DNA of 64,000 nt from Halosegnis marinus. GTDB lineage: Archaea; Halobacteriota; Halobacteria; Halobacteriales; Haloarculaceae. Location: assembly GCF_029338355.1 (NCBI RefSeq), contig NZ_CP119802.1, positions 1,426,001 through 1,490,000 of the forward strand, written 5' to 3'. Under the pieces are notes generated by a model. The model did not search any database, was not told the origin of the DNA, and saw only the letters and a program-made list of their open reading frames with translations. Shown here piece by piece: positions 18,512-22,770 of the stretch. Made by a program: the position numbers and the translations under genes. The number at the start of each line of letters is the position of its first letter. The first letter of the stretch is position 1.

Positions 18512-19207
18512 CTACTCGTGGGGCGTGCGGATGTCCTCGGCGCGGAGTTCGTCGTGTGCGCGCCACGTCCGCGGGCGGCAGGCGACGACGAGCGCGCCCG
18601 CGAAGACGACGGCGAGCGTGAGGGTCACGACGACGCCGGGGACCATCCCGACGGCGGCGCTCGCGGGCCACGGCTCGGGCGTGAAGGCCGTCACTCGGAG
18701 CACCCACGCCCCGTCGAGGATGGCGAACAGCGGGAGGTACACCCGCCGCAGCCGGTGGGCGACGGCCTCCTCGGCGGTGATGCGCAGCGCCGGCTGGTGG
18801 TAGTCGGCCGCCAGCCGCTCGCGCCAGTCGGGCGACGGCTCGCGCGAGGGGTCGAGGCCGACGGCGAAGACGTTCCGCTGGAGGGTGCGGACCCGCGAGC
18901 GCCACATGTCGTACGCGCGGTAGCGGCGCGCCTCGATGACGAGGAAGAGGCCGACCGCGAGATTCCCGATGAGCAGCACGTAGTGGGGGTTCGACTCGTT
19001 CGTGAACGCCCACGTCAACACGGCCGCGAGCAGGAGGACGGCCCAGTTCGTCGTGCGGTCCAGCCGCTCGCGCCACAGCTTCATCCGGTGGACCTCGCCG
19101 CGGTAGAGGTGGGCCATCGCCCCCGACGGCCCCATCTCCTCGTCGAGGAGGCCCCGGCCGACGCCGGGGTCGAGGGGCGGGCGCTCCTCGGAGTCGGCGT
19201 CCGTCAT
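18512..19207 (-). CDS. DUF2270 membrane protein
   Basis: 231 aa. Soluble N-terminus with AHLYRGEVHRMKLWRERLD, two adjacent helices (TTNWAVLLLAAVLTWAFTNE; YVLLIGNLAVGLFLVIEARR), a central YRAYDMWRSRVRTLQRNVFA segment, and a C-terminal helix pair. These match DUF2270. Function unknown. Its ATG lies within the last 4 nt of the upstream regulator gene (ATGA overlap), so the two are co-translated. Confidence 0.87.
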   Translation of the reverse strand: MTDADSEERPPLDPGVGRGLLDEEMGPSGAMAHLYRGEVHRMKLWRERLDRTTNWAVLLLAAVLTWAFTNESNPHYVLLIGNLAVGLFLVIEARRYRAYDMWRSRVRTLQRNVFAVGLDPSREPSPDWRERLAADYHQPALRITAEEAVAHRLRRVYLPLFAILDGAWVLRVTAFTPEPWPASAAVGMVPGVVVTLTLAVVFAGALVVACRPRTWRAHDELRAEDIRTPHE

Positions 19208-19617
19208 TCCGGCTCCGGCGGGGCCGCCCGCTCGCCGTCGGCCGCGCCGTCGTACTTCTCGCGGAACTCGGCGATGAGCTGACCCATCTCGGCGTACCAG
19301 TCGTTGAGCATGCGCTGCATCGCGTCGGCCACCTCGTCGGGCGGCGCGGGCGCGAACACGTGGTAGTAGCTCCCCGAGTCGAAGCTCCGCTGCTCCTTCT
19401 CCACGACGCCGGCCTCCGCCAGCCGGCGGAGCGAGCGGTACGCGGTGGTGCGCTCGCGGTCGATCTCCGCGGCGAGTTCGTCCACGGTGAGGGGTCCGTC
19501 GGCCTCGACGAGGATGGCGAACGCGCGCCGATCGAGGTCGGACAGCCCGTGGAAGCAGTCGAGCAGCGACTCGCACTCCAGCTCCCGACCCAGCATCTCC
19601 GCCATCGAGTCGACCAT
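19204..19617 (-). CDS. Winged-helix transcriptional regulator (MarR/TrmB-like)
   Basis: 137 aa. A winged helix at about residues 22-85 (FAILVEADGPLTVDELAAEI; RERTTAYRSLRRLAEAGVVE) and a C-terminal helix (MLNDWYAEMGQLIAEFREKY) likely for dimerisation. Two cysteines, C15 and C21 (LECESLLDC), sit just before the winged helix. It lies 43 nt downstream of the YeeE pair on the same strand, so it could regulate the sulfur operon in which it may be transcribed; this is inference. It overlaps the DUF2270 gene. Confidence 0.83.
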   Translation of the reverse strand: MVDSMAEMLGRELECESLLDCFHGLSDLDRRAFAILVEADGPLTVDELAAEIDRERTTAYRSLRRLAEAGVVEKEQRSFDSGSYYHVFAPAPPDEVADAMQRMLNDWYAEMGQLIAEFREKYDGAADGERAAPPEPE

Positions 19618-19660
19618 CAGCGGACACCTCCGGCGCGGCGGCCGAAAACGCTTGCGCGGC

Positions 19661-20131
19661 TCACGCCTCGGCCCCCGCGCCCGCTCCCGAGCGCGCGCCG
19701 ACCGTCTCGCGGAGCCACCCCTGCAGGTACGCGCCGGCGAACATCCCGCCGACGGCCCACAGGATGGGGAGGTTCCCGACCCCGAGGCTGGCGTACGCGG
19801 CTCCCGGACAGATGCCCGAGAGGCCCCAGCCGGCGCCGAACACGACGCCGCCGACGAGGACGTTCGAGTCGAACGACTTCAGCCGCCGGGCGTACGCGCG
19901 CTCCGTCAGGGGCGCGGTGCCGCCGGCCCGCTCCGCGACGGCGAAGGCGATGCCCGAGACCGTCGCCGCCCCGCCCATCACGAGCAGCAGGCCGAAGTCC
20001 TCGAACTGCAGGAAGTCGAGGACCACCTCCGGGCGGGCCATCTCCGAGACGGCGAGGCCGACGCCGAAGACGAGGCCGCCGACGAACACCGCCGGGAGGA
20101 ACAGCGGGTGTCCCCCGTCGTCGGCGCTCAC
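19661..20131 (-). CDS. YeeE/YedE family protein, second half-size subunit
   Basis: 156 aa; GTG start overlapping the previous gene by 4 nt. About four hydrophobic helices with the family motif GAGWGLSGICPGAAYASLG, whose cysteine aligns with the substrate cysteine of YeeE/TsuA thiosulfate or sulfane-sulfur permeases. Together with the preceding gene it makes a split YeeE transporter, a common arrangement. Predicted to move a reduced sulfur compound across the membrane. Confidence 0.9.
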   Translation of the reverse strand: MSADDGGHPLFLPAVFVGGLVFGVGLAVSEMARPEVVLDFLQFEDFGLLLVMGGAATVSGIAFAVAERAGGTAPLTERAYARRLKSFDSNVLVGGVVFGAGWGLSGICPGAAYASLGVGNLPILWAVGGMFAGAYLQGWLRETVGARSGAGAGAEA

Positions 20132-20607
20132 GGCGTCACCCCCACGGCGGCGACGAGCTGTGCCGTTCCGATCGCCACGGCGAGGAACGTCGCCACGTTC
20201 AGTATCGAGGTGCGCGAGCGCGACCCGACGCCGCAGACGCCGTGGCCGGAGGTACACCCCTTGCCGAGGCGGGTGCCGGCGCCGACGAGGACGCCGCCGA
20301 GCGCCAGCCGCCACGGCTGCACGTCGGTGGTCCACGGCCCCTCGCCGAGCGTGAAGGCGTACGCCGCCGCGCCGAGCACGATGCCGACGGAGAAGACGAC
20401 GCGCCAGTCCCGGGAGGCGCGGTACTTCGCGAACCGCTGCCGGTCGGAGACGTACGACAGCGTCGATTCGAGGAACGTGCTCGCGCCGACCGGAATCGCC
20501 GTCAGCGCGTAGACGAACACGGTTCCCAACCCGATGAGCAGGCCGCCGAGGAGATAGTGGGCGGTGCCGTTCGGGAACAGCCCCGCGAGCGTGGATTCGA
20601 GCGCCAT
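20128..20607 (-). CDS. YeeE/YedE family protein, first half-size subunit
   Basis: 159 aa; ATG at 20607 overlaps the stop of the rhodanese-MBL gene (TGATG). Hydrophobic helices flank the motif RLGKGCTSGHGVCGVGSRS, which carries the conserved cysteine of the GCTSGHG signature. Forms the N-terminal half of a split YeeE/TsuA-type sulfur transporter with the next gene. Order and overlaps indicate one operon: rhodanese-MBL, YeeE-N, YeeE-C, regulator, DUF2270. Confidence 0.92.
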   Translation of the reverse strand: MALESTLAGLFPNGTAHYLLGGLLIGLGTVFVYALTAIPVGASTFLESTLSYVSDRQRFAKYRASRDWRVVFSVGIVLGAAAYAFTLGEGPWTTDVQPWRLALGGVLVGAGTRLGKGCTSGHGVCGVGSRSRTSILNVATFLAVAIGTAQLVAAVGVTP

Positions 20608-21779
20608 CACTCCCCCGCAGCGCAGTTGTTCGGGCCGAGCTCCATCGTGAACGCCTCGTCGTCGTCCGCGGTCTCGCGGCCGAGGTTCGTGGCGATGATG
20701 GACTCGTAGTTCGCCGGCCGGGGCGGCATGTCCGCGAGCACGCGCTCGACGAAGGTCTCCCGGTCGACGCCGAGCAGGTCGAGGTCGTCGACCAGGTCGC
20801 CGACCGTCGCGAGGTAGGCGCCGTCGTCACGCGCCTCGGTGCGCTCGCCGAAGTGTGCCGGCCCGACGAGGGTGTCGTCGGGCAGCGTGAGCAGGCGGTC
20901 GTGGAGCGTGTCGTACAGCGTCCGCGCGGCGTCGGCGGCCCCGGCGTCGCCCTCCTCCAGGTCGGGGCGCGCGACGCTGTCCACGAACAGGGTGTCGCCC
21001 GTCAGCGCGAGCGCGTCGTCCACCCGGTAGGTCGTCATCCCCGAGGTGTGGCCGGGCGTGTGGCGGACGGTCAGGGTCGCGCCGCCGACGGCGAGTTCCT
21101 CGCCGCCCGCGACCGTCCGTACCTCGTCGGCGTAGGTCGCGCCCCGGTCGGCCGCCGCCGCGGGCAGGACCGCCGTCGCGCCCGTCGCCGCGGCGAGTTC
21201 GCGCAGGCCGCTGACGTGGTCGGCGTGGACGTGGGTGTCGAGGACGTGGGTTATCTCGACGCCGAGGTCGTCGGCGTCGGCGACGTAGCGGTCGGTGAAC
21301 GCGCGCAGGGGGTCGATAACGGCCGCTTCGCCCTCCGAGACGACCATGTACGCGAGACAGCCCGAGGAGGGCCGGCGGTACTGCCGGACGACCGTGCCGC
21401 TCGGGAGGTCGAGGTCGGTGTGTTCGTACAGCCGCGCCCAGCCGCGCATCCCGTCGTCGAGGTGGGAGGTCTCGTAGCCCGCGTCGGCGAGCAGGCCGGC
21501 GACGAACTCGCTCGACGTCCCCTTCGCGCAGACGACCACGACCGGCTCGTCGGCCGGTACGTCCGCGACGAGCGACTCGTCGAGCCCGTCGAGGAAGTCG
21601 AAGTAGGGGACGTTCACGGACGTGACGTTCGGCGCGTCGATGTGCCACTCCCCGTAGTCCGCGCGTGCCCGCGTGTCGAGCAGGGTGACCCGCTCGCCCG
21701 CGTCGATGCGGCGCTTCAGGTCGGCCGGCGCGGTCGGCTCTATCTCGGACTCGGTCTCCGGGAACATCGCCTCGTTCAT
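20607..21779 (-). CDS. Rhodanese plus metallo-beta-lactamase fusion (persulfide dioxygenase-like)
   Basis: 390 aa. N-terminal rhodanese domain at about residues 16-120 with active-site C84 in VVVVCAKGTSSE. C-terminal MBL domain at about 128-340 with the metal motif THVHADHVSG (182-191), HTPGHTSG, LTGDTLFVDSVARPDL. The ETHE1/Blh class oxidises glutathione- or low-molecular-weight persulfides to sulfite; domain order here (rhodanese first) differs from the commoner C-terminal rhodanese fusions. Heads the sulfur operon. CCCTTTTGAC (minus strand of about 21802-21811) lies 23-32 nt upstream. Confidence 0.92.
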   Translation of the reverse strand: MNEAMFPETESEIEPTAPADLKRRIDAGERVTLLDTRARADYGEWHIDAPNVTSVNVPYFDFLDGLDESLVADVPADEPVVVVCAKGTSSEFVAGLLADAGYETSHLDDGMRGWARLYEHTDLDLPSGTVVRQYRRPSSGCLAYMVVSEGEAAVIDPLRAFTDRYVADADDLGVEITHVLDTHVHADHVSGLRELAAATGATAVLPAAAADRGATYADEVRTVAGGEELAVGGATLTVRHTPGHTSGMTTYRVDDALALTGDTLFVDSVARPDLEEGDAGAADAARTLYDTLHDRLLTLPDDTLVGPAHFGERTEARDDGAYLATVGDLVDDLDLLGVDRETFVERVLADMPPRPANYESIIATNLGRETADDDEAFTMELGPNNCAAGE

Positions 21780-21947
21780 ACCCGTCACTCGGACAGGTCG
21801 GTCAAAAGGGTTGCGACTGTCTTGCATTTCTGTTACAACGCGGTAACCCGGACACCGCGTCGAAACCGCGCTACTGCCGCGTAAGGCATCTCCGAGCGAC
21901 TGAGCGTTGTACTGCTCACGAAACGCTTTTGTATCGCTCCTCCAAGA

Positions 21948-21964
21948 TTGCACTTACACTGCAA
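21948..21964. promoter_or_regulatory. Inverted repeat between the divergent sulfur operons
   Basis: TTGCACTTACACTGCAA is a perfect 5-bp inverted repeat (TTGCA/TGCAA) around a 7-nt spacer, ending 3 nt before the TusA ATG. A looser TTG...CAA copy, TTGCATTTCTGTTACAA, lies at about 21823-21839 near the promoter of the divergent rhodanese-MBL gene. Position suggests an operator; no regulator binding is known. Confidence 0.4.
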
Positions 21965-21967
21965 ACC

Positions 21968-22219
21968 ATGGACGACACACAACCCACCGAGACGCTGGAC
22001 GTGAAAGGGGAGAACTGTCCGATGCCGGTCGTGCGGACGAAGCAGGCCGTCGACGGCCTCTCGTCGGGCGACCTGCTCGAAGTGCTGGCAACCGACGCCG
22101 GGAGCGTGAGCGACATCGACGGGTGGGCGGCCGGAACCCCGGGCGTCGCGCTCGAATCCCAGAGCGAGCGCGAGGACGGCGACGGGACCGTGTACGTCCA
22201 CCGGGTGCGCGTCGAATGA
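21968..22219 (+). CDS. tusA: TusA-family sulfurtransferase
   Basis: 83 aa. Sulfur-carrier protein with the family motif KGENCPMPVVRTKQAV; C17 is the persulfide-bearing cysteine. ATG at 21968 chosen because it gives the standard N-terminus; an in-frame TTG at 21929 would add 13 residues over promoter DNA. Its TGA overlaps the ATG of the DsrE-like gene. It likely accepts sulfane sulfur imported or handled by the divergent YeeE/rhodanese operon. Confidence 0.94.
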   Translation: MDDTQPTETLDVKGENCPMPVVRTKQAVDGLSSGDLLEVLATDAGSVSDIDGWAAGTPGVALESQSEREDGDGTVYVHRVRVE

Positions 22220-22770
22220 GCGCCGAGGCGGCCGACGCGGACCCGGCCGAGCGCGTGGCCGAGCTGGAGGAACGGGTCGCGGAACTGGAGGCCCAGCGCG
22301 ACGACGACGAGCAAAAGTCGATGGTCATCGTCGCGACGAAGGGGACGCTCGACATGGCGTACCCGCCGCTCATCCTCGCCTCGACGGCCGCCGCGTTCGG
22401 CTGGGACGTGACCGTCTTCCACACGTTCTGGGGGCTCGACATCCTCCACGAGGAGCGCACCGAGGACCTGAAACTGAGCGCCGTGGGCAACCCCAACATG
22501 CCCGTCCCGAACGCCGTCGCGGCGATTCCGGGGATGGACCGCGTGGCGACGACGATGATGGAGCGGCGCATCGCCGACAACGACACCGCCACCGTCTCCG
22601 AACTGCTCGACACCTGCTTCGAGATGGGCGTCGAGCTCCAGGCGTGCCAGATGACTATCGACCTGATGGGCTACGACGAGGACGACTTCCACGACGAGGT
22701 GACCGTCGGCGTCGGCGCGGCCACGGCGCTGTCCCGGATGGCCGACGCGGACGTCCAGCTGCTCGTCTGA
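22216..22770 (+). CDS. DsrE/DsrF/DrsH-like sulfur-relay protein
   Basis: 184 aa; starts inside the tusA stop codon. Residues 1-35 are a short charged coiled-coil (AERVAELEERVAELEAQRDD). The rest is a DsrE fold: MVIVATKGTLDMAYPPLILA, FGWDVTVFHTFWGLDILHEE, and a C-terminal ELQACQMTIDLMGYDEDDF with the candidate persulfide cysteine. TusA-DsrE pairs pass sulfane sulfur between carriers. Cytosolic, possibly membrane-associated through the variable loop (AAIPGMDRVATTMMERRI). Confidence 0.92.
   Translation: MSAEAADADPAERVAELEERVAELEAQRDDDEQKSMVIVATKGTLDMAYPPLILASTAAAFGWDVTVFHTFWGLDILHEERTEDLKLSAVGNPNMPVPNAVAAIPGMDRVATTMMERRIADNDTATVSELLDTCFEMGVELQACQMTIDLMGYDEDDFHDEVTVGVGAATALSRMADADVQLLV

Follow-up and report, generated by a model that had tools for sequence, protein, structure and literature searches.

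A conserved haloarchaeal sulfur gene module with a candidate thiol-switch regulator and a predicted operator

The gene module and its divergent promoter region

In the 64,000-nucleotide stretch of Halosegnis marinus contig NZ_CP119802.1 analysed here (positions 1,426,001 to 1,490,000 of the forward strand; hereafter the window), seven intact reading frames at 18512-22770 form a module of two divergent units, encoding sulfur enzymes, carriers and a split transporter together with a small winged-helix regulator, termed REG below, and a membrane protein of the DUF2270 family. The minus-strand unit runs, in transcription order, from a fusion of rhodanese and metallo-beta-lactamase (rhodanese-MBL) through a YeeE half and a second YeeE half (DUF6691) to REG and DUF2270, and the plus-strand unit from tusA to a DsrE2-type gene. 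Genes and predicted operators are listed with their scores and model cut-offs:

18512..19207, minus strand: DUF2270 membrane protein, 231 amino acids (aa), sulfur-linked subfamily (225 bits, cut-off 25)
19204..19617, minus strand: REG, single-domain TrmB-type winged-helix regulator, 137 aa, overlapping DUF2270 by 4 bases (57.3 bits, cut-off 25.6)
19661..20131, minus strand: YeeE half/DUF6691, PmpB-like, N-terminal part of PF04143 (75 bits, cut-off 27)
20128..20610, minus strand, start at 20607 or 20610: YeeE half, PmpA-like, C-terminal part of PF04143 (PF04143 52.6 bits, cut-off 27)
20607..21779, minus strand: rhodanese (N-terminal) plus metallo-beta-lactamase, persulfide dioxygenase type (rhodanese 44.9 bits, cut-off 22.2; metallo-beta-lactamase 61 bits, cut-off 22.7)
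21822..21838: predicted operator 1, TTGCATTTCTGTTACAA, 43-59 bases 5' of the start of the rhodanese-MBL gene and also 5' of the TATA-like element of that gene
21948..21964: predicted operator 2, TTGCACTTACACTGCAA, 4-20 bases 5' of the tusA start
21968..22219, plus strand: TusA-family sulfurtransferase, 83 aa, C17 in a CPMP motif (63.1 bits, cut-off 28.6)
22216..22770, plus strand: DsrE2-type sulfur carrier, 184 aa, overlapping tusA by 4 bases (PF13686 167.4 bits, cut-off 25)

A sequence-only reading of this DNA had proposed a divergent sulfane-sulfur module with its own regulator, and all the genes that it named are present as intact frames with curated-family support. The interval that it gave, 19204-22770, covers the other genes and leaves out DUF2270, although DUF2270 was named as a member. 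Its remark that all junctions but one overlap was borne out, since four of the five same-strand junctions (DUF2270/REG, YeeE/YeeE, YeeE/MBL and TusA/DsrE2) overlap by 1-4 bases and only REG/YeeE is separated, by 43 bases. Two dyad sites in the 188 bases between the divergent units, described below, went unmentioned in that reading. REG lies in the operon that it would control, so that feedback is to be expected.

Conservation of the regulator with sulfur genes

With REG as bait, 80 named loci were fetched, which are the best 80 of 333 relatives; some of them are cut by contig ends. Five near-identical Haloferax loci (L087, L088, L089, L095, and L110) were left out of the dyad, promoter, REG-tree, and DUF2270/TauE counts and kept in the gene-content and residue counts, and truncated rows were excluded from the residue-conservation, REG-tree, and per-promoter counts. 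In L042 and L075, REG was not called by the simple gene finder. Across the 81 loci (the window plus the 80), YeeE was found in 39, MBL-rhodanese in 39, TusA in 38 and DsrE2 in 33, together with TauE (40 loci), the 50-aa protein DUF7512 (36), thioredoxin (23) and DUF2270 (18). In many relatives the module thus includes a TauE/SafE exporter and the DUF7512 protein, both of which are absent from the locus in the window.

Because these loci had been picked by likeness to REG, co-occurrence was tallied in whole genomes as well. Of 59 related genomes, 45 have a REG ortholog (E 1e-30 or better) and 35 have DsrE2; a genome with only a split REG match (G015) was scored as REG-negative. DsrE2 was present in 35 of the 45 REG-positive genomes and in none of the 14 REG-negative ones (Fisher p 1.5e-7), and the 43 genomes at least 90% complete gave a similar picture (both genes in 30, REG only in 9, DsrE2 only in 0, neither in 4; p 0.006). 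Moreover, 30 of 44 DsrE2 genes lie no more than 13 kb from a REG gene, against 0.56 expected, and among 76 REG rows (named genomes plus the window), 49 have TauE and/or at least two module genes no more than five genes away. The regulator and the sulfur genes are therefore kept together across many haloarchaeal genera, and one half of what the sequence-only reading had regarded as fatal to its proposal, a lack of conservation of the regulator and DUF2270 with these genes, does not hold. The possibility that the neighbourhood merely brings together unrelated genes by chance was rejected on these co-occurrence and distance counts; it is also contradicted by the shared dyad, nothing was found in its favour, and we give it practically no credence.

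In a phylum sample of 294 genomes (E 1e-20), 115 match REG. Of the 53 genomes listed for this order, 51 are among them, and the best match in each of these reaches E 4.4e-63 or better; the remaining 64 genomes match at 2.5e-32 or weaker. A REG tree gave no clean split by partner genes, few columns being available and many forks unresolved.

A shared dyad in the promoters of sulfur genes and of REG

A 17-bp inverted repeat, TTG-N11-CAA, was first noticed by inspecting the tusA/MBL intergenic DNA. Its presence in the promoters of sulfur genes and of REG is the new element of this study, and it lends support, together with the conservation of REG beside the sulfur genes, to the earlier claim that the set is a sulfane-sulfur module with a regulator of its own. 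Across 78 sulfur-gene promoter regions there are 85 copies of the repeat, where Markov shuffles predict 3.4. The 61 regions upstream of REG hold 30 copies (1.8 expected) and are also enriched in a variant with a 13-base spacer (18 vs 1.5), whereas 290 control regions hold 13 copies (5.9 expected). In the sulfur-gene promoters, other spacings are near expectation except for 9 (13 vs 3.7), 13 (12 vs 3.8), 16 (11 vs 3.5) and 21 (22 vs 4.0).

Counted per promoter, with a spacer of 11 or 13 within 130 bases, the dyad is carried by 32 of 33 tusA promoters, 29 of 31 of DUF7512-TauE, 16 of 23 of thioredoxin and 5 of 7 of VKOR, as well as by 54 of 71 REG promoters. It was found in 3 of 19 promoters of a stress-protein-like family, 0 of 3 of a PiT-like family and 23 of 423 of all other genes; sulfur-type domains are encoded by at least two of these 23, one a rhodanese gene and one of DsrE type. 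The 13-base-spacer form is present in 25 of 71 REG promoters (e.g., L074, L082, and L104), and at DUF7512-TauE loci the dyad mostly lies 100-110 bases 5' of the DUF7512 gene.

The placement of the dyad is also conserved. In 15 of the 23 tusA promoters that have a TATA-like string, the dyad starts 20-21 bases past it, and this spacing holds while the distance to the ATG varies; in the window, operator 2 begins 21 bases after the start of the tusA TATA-like element. The tusA dyad thus covers the expected transcription start, a placement that points to repression. In eight MBL-rhodanese promoters the dyad instead precedes the TATA-like string, starting 20-22 bases before it in six and 31 bases before it in the window and L033, and in many REG genes it lies, as judged by eye, just 5' of the TATA-like element. 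A dyad in this upstream position would cover the transcription factor B recognition element, as expected for repression; about one helical turn farther, as in the window, it could also serve activation.

The strict form TTGYR-N7-YRCAA has two matches in the window, against 0.03 expected from shuffles, and both sit in the 188-base divergent promoter region. In the 2.81-Mb genome it occurs eight times (a reversed control pattern, 55 times), and none of the six other copies is near an obvious sulfur gene. On the chromosome, one of these lies in a transporter-like gene near its start and one between two divergent genes; the second contig has four, three of them intragenic (two being the same repeated sequence) and one between divergent small genes. 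The chromosomal intergenic copy (G000:C1:2291515-2291531, in L174) has on one side a gene that, by eye, starts like a 2-oxoacid oxidoreductase subunit, and is possibly a distant target or a chance occurrence. A third, weaker TTG-N11-CAA in the promoter region (21929-21945), which starts inside the tusA TATA-like element, may be due to chance.

A single-domain TrmB-type regulator with two conserved cysteines

REG is a TrmB winged helix without the C-terminal ligand domain. Its TrmB score (57.3 bits, cut-off 25.6) is far better than that for the ArsR-type Pfam model HTH_5, which it barely reaches (23.1 bits, cut-off 22), and it falls below the NCBIfam cut-offs for Sta1 (64.3/80), Lrs14 (39.8/90) and the ArsR-type NF033788 (25.1/55 bits). 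The structures 3r0a and 6cmv are among its best solved relatives by sequence and rank top by the predicted model. This model has a mean predicted local distance difference test score (pLDDT) of 84, dropping to about 57-60 in the initial 20-residue stretch, of which C15 is part.

Two cysteines of the N-terminal segment stand out, C15 being present in 80 and C21 in all of 81 REG rows. Among 12 aligned, more distant paralogs, a cysteine occupies the C21 position in 10 and the C15 position in none. C21 aligns with the single cysteine of an OxsR-like paralog in the same genome (L199) and, via the 3r0a alignment, with C24 of the Haloferax volcanii regulator OxsR (HVO_2970), an equivalence between the 3r0a cysteine and C24 that is given in the accessible text of PMC9426492. 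With C21 at the OxsR position and C15 in addition, REG resembles a redox regulator in which a second thiol has been acquired.

This likeness to OxsR raises the alternative that REG is a general sensor of thiol oxidation (hypochlorite, disulfide stress), the sulfur genes being one branch of a wider thiol-repair response. The common fold, with the same nearest solved relatives, and the shared cysteine position agree with it, and so does the observation that some REG genes without sulfur genes adjoin thioredoxin, thioredoxin reductase, and VKOR genes, and that thioredoxin and VKOR promoters at REG loci often bear the dyad. On the other hand, the second, near-invariant cysteine of REG has no counterpart in the 12 paralogs, no DsrE2 occurs without REG in the 59 genomes, and the genome has a separate one-cysteine OxsR-like paralog, so that a general sensor appears rather unlikely.

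By the positions of its cysteines in the description of PMC9426492, HVO_1360 of Haloferax is probably the REG ortholog. This protein has C15 and C21, is 28% identical to OxsR and is named there as a possible OxsR partner. PMC9426492 was the sole paper found with this locus tag, and HVO_1360 appears uncharacterised there, persulfide, rhodanese, and TauE being absent from its main text.

A third small TrmB-type regulator, 38% identical to REG, was seen in two genomes of the same genus as the window (L200, G002:C9:83500-84500; L201, G004:C1:2364400-2365400). It has a cysteine at the C21 position and none at that of C15, and lies 2-3 kb from a second DsrE2 copy.

Enzymes, sulfur carriers and the split transporter

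Persulfide dioxygenases of the ETHE1/PRF kind have a characteristic set of metal-site motifs (HxHxDH, H, D, H). In a 42-row alignment of rhodanese-MBL, C84 of the rhodanese domain and H183, H185, D187, H188, H244, D262, and H309 of the metal site are conserved, and the metal-site residues align with those of the Burkholderia enzyme BpPRF (PDB 5ve3), the best solved match. The latter is likewise a rhodanese fusion aligned across the metal site, with the order of the domains reversed relative to the protein described here. All 42 homologs also share C141, in the stretch that joins the two domains, and C386, which belongs to a GPNNCA motif at the C-terminus.

Together, the two YeeE halves cover positions 171-306 and 8-111 of the 310-position PF04143 profile, both above cut-off, with C118 in 37 of 37 and C125 in 36 of 37 rows of the PmpA-like half and C108 in 39 of 39 of the PmpB-like half. 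The split YeeE transporter named by the sequence-only reading is indeed made up of two halves, which fit a PmpA/PmpB-type split form and not a broken gene. Like PmpA/PmpB and SoxT/TsuA as described in the accessible text of PMC11582611, it consists of two short halves of PF04143 with a conserved cysteine in each; unlike these, the pair is archaeal, is tied to a dioxygenase and REG, and has a second cysteine in the PmpA-like half. As for the carriers, the DsrE2-type protein has C144 in 31 of 31 rows, and TusA reaches PF01206 and has the cysteine of the CPxP motif (C17), which is a cysteine in 36 of 40 members of the cluster.

Several narrower NCBIfam models were not reached, namely those for Blh (NF040641, 45.6/625), DsrE2 (NF047629, 154.1/210, in contrast to the broader PF13686), TsuA (23.9/400), and TsuB/YeeD (21/147.5). 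The models for Blh, DsrE2, and TsuA are of equivalog type and that for TsuB is an exception model, and these names are therefore used here for kinds of protein and not as memberships.

The same scores bear on an alternative in which the module serves sulfur assimilation, by thiosulfate uptake followed by TusA-dependent biosynthesis, and no detoxification. According to the accessible text of PMC11582611, a YeeE/TusA-type pair, TsuA/TsuB, does so in Escherichia coli. Nevertheless, with both thiosulfate transporter models far from reached, a persulfide-dioxygenase-type enzyme, joined in relatives by a TauE-type exporter, pointing to oxidation and removal, and DsrE2 absent from 24 of the 59 related genomes, we hold assimilation as the sole role to be very improbable.

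One DUF2270 subfamily is linked to the module

DUF2270 had been thought to gain a context from its inclusion in the set, and this proved true of one subfamily and not of the family as a whole, whose designation as a sulfur family was rejected. In total, 49 DUF2270 matches were found in 33 of the 59 related genomes. A tree of 48 rows was built from 18 rows of the window and the REG-fetched loci and 30 of the 49 whole-genome matches, and all 25 sulfur-linked rows fell within one well-supported clade of 31, the label being partly built in, as 17 rows come from loci fetched through REG. None of the 17 rows outside the clade was scored as linked; for 12 of them, inspection of about 8 kb to either side revealed no module gene, one having a thioredoxin-reductase-like neighbour and two stress-protein-like ones. 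Of the six unlinked rows within the clade, one has YeeE and TusA nearby, two have a rhodanese-MBL-like neighbour and three show no module gene over the stretch inspected; in G032, one of the two with the MBL-like neighbour, REG is distant and a dyad lies about 120 bases 5' of the DUF2270 match. With whole genomes as the starting point, a REG gene was found within 8 kb of 9 of the 47 DUF2270 matches listed.

The place of DUF2270 in the module shifts (after REG, after DsrE2, after MBL-rhodanese, or before REG), which argues for function and not for a frozen gene order. Across 28 module loci, DUF2270 and TauE were found together in 5, DUF2270 only in 8, TauE only in 12 and neither in 3 (p 0.051), at most a hint that DUF2270 stands in for TauE. 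The predicted model consists of four long helices, and the alignment of 18 rows shows many invariant arginines, four invariant histidines and no invariant cysteine. No match at E 0.001 or below was obtained in a fold search, so that the structure suggests no mechanism, and no paper containing the term DUF2270 was found in the literature collection searched.

A predicted sulfane-sulfur regulon and its bacterial analogue

Taken together, we consider it probable, at moderate confidence, that the two divergent operons make up one thiol-switch regulon for reactive sulfane sulfur that is analogous, in an archaeon, to the bigR operon. From what is known of the families, its functions would be thiosulfate import, persulfide detoxification and the handing over of sulfur to TusA/DsrE. 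The YeeE halves, of PmpAB type, probably carry thiosulfate or other sulfane-sulfur species across the membrane, with DUF2270 as a membrane accessory of the transport step, which is a guess. The rhodanese domain would load or transfer sulfane sulfur, the fused dioxygenase would oxidise persulfide to sulfite with O2, TusA and DsrE2 would hand sulfane sulfur to other acceptors, and the TauE/SafE exporter present in many relatives would remove sulfite. REG, probably as a dimer, is predicted to bind TTG-N11-CAA, both where tusA transcription is expected to start and 5' of other promoters, and most likely represses the promoters that bear the dyad. Persulfide or polysulfide would modify C21, C15 would close a bridge, disulfide or polysulfide, in one subunit or from one subunit to the other, and the bridged REG would let go, allowing both operons to be transcribed.

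Several observations weigh against this regulon. For 27 of 76 REG rows, at most one module gene and no TauE lie within a distance of five genes. TauE is missing at the locus in the window, the only match of the genome (49885-51006, plus strand) lacking a dyad and being some 27 kb distant, and REG itself has no promoter dyad of its own in the window. Where the gap before the gene is at least 60 bases, a near dyad was found in just 16 of 36 MBL-rhodanese, 3 of 15 YeeE, 3 of 11 DUF2270, and 0 of 4 TauE promoters. Upstream sites could equally mean activation, as for OxsR, for which upstream sites lead to activation and downstream sites to repression according to the accessible text of PMC9426492. 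Finally, over whole genomes the strict pattern and its control gave 267 vs 217 matches in the 45 REG-positive genomes and 42 vs 38 in the 14 REG-negative ones, and a separation appears solely after post hoc removal of two small genomes, G035 and G051 (10 vs 30, p 0.0002). Such whole-genome counts thus neither support nor contradict recognition of the dyad by REG.

The failure of these counts to separate REG-positive from REG-negative genomes would suit an alternative in which the dyad is real and bound by another transcription factor, the targets of REG being different. Many of the 59 genomes encode further TrmB-type paralogs, and the binding of REG to the dyad is a prediction from sequence. 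However, the dyad precedes 18 of the 23 REG genes with neither a module gene nor TauE five or fewer genes away, compared with the 23 of 423 other genes, as expected of autoregulation, and we judge another factor to be improbable.

Persulfide- and sulfane-sulfur-sensing regulators of the ArsR and MarR types are well known in bacteria, and others belong to the CsoR type; BigR is of the ArsR type. By analogy of its parts, the bigR operon of Xylella and Agrobacterium is the closest working analogue of the module. According to the accessible text of PMC5823870, it encodes a small winged-helix regulator with two key cysteines (Cys42 and Cys108 in BigR), a fusion of sulfurtransferase and dioxygenase with the sulfurtransferase N-terminal (Blh), and a TauE-related sulfite transporter, matched by the TauE-type exporter in relatives of the present locus. 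REG differs from BigR in being of TrmB/arCOG02242 type (the arCOG placement being by description) with C15 and C21 in the N-terminal segment, and the haloarchaeal fusion differs from Blh in having a canonical rhodanese in place of DUF442. Beyond the bigR operon, the haloarchaeal set adds the split YeeE, TusA, DsrE2, DUF2270, and a predicted operator of its own.

Thiol-switch regulators named for archaea in the accessible text of PMC9426492 are MsvR, SurR, and OxsR. SurR of the Thermococcales resembles REG as an archaeal regulator whose cysteines respond to sulfur (S0) and differs in belonging to an ArsR-type family and in acting on hydrogen-production and sulfur-metabolism genes. OxsR is, like REG, a haloarchaeal single-domain TrmB-type protein with a thiol at the C21 position; by the same source, its single cysteine is C24, its motif is CG-rich, and its gene set is that of oxidative stress, whereas REG has a second near-invariant cysteine and a predicted A+T-rich dyad on sulfur genes. 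No published haloarchaeal sulfane-sulfur regulator turned up among the top matches in mostly freely accessible literature.

The module is real and conserved, and goes beyond the sequence-only reading in comprising a predicted regulon with an operator. A broader proposal is offered tentatively, namely that nearly all haloarchaea have a TrmB-family two-cysteine sulfane-sulfur sensor with a TTG-N11-CAA operator and a persulfide regulon (split YeeE, dioxygenase-rhodanese, TusA, DsrE2, TauE, thioredoxin, VKOR, and one DUF2270 subfamily), derived from a one-cysteine redox regulator by the gain of a second cysteine, in parallel to the bacterial ArsR-type sensors. If true, haloarchaea would gain a regulon devoted to sulfane sulfur, having a precise operator and a cysteine pair open to test, a role would be suggested for HVO_1360 in a genetically tractable organism, and one DUF2270 subfamily would gain a functional context.

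Neighbouring genes in related loci

The 50-aa DUF7512 protein (e.g., L033 10365-10514) is usually encoded before TauE, being present in 36 loci vs 40 with TauE. In L047, L058, L063, L064, L072, L080, and L094, REG lies beside thioredoxin, thioredoxin-reductase-like, or VKOR genes without sulfur genes, so that the regulon may reach into thiol-disulfide exchange. A permease that looks, by eye, like the PiT/PHO4 type is found in or beside the module or TauE in L074 (4245-5420) and ten other loci, and could be a sulfur-anion permease.

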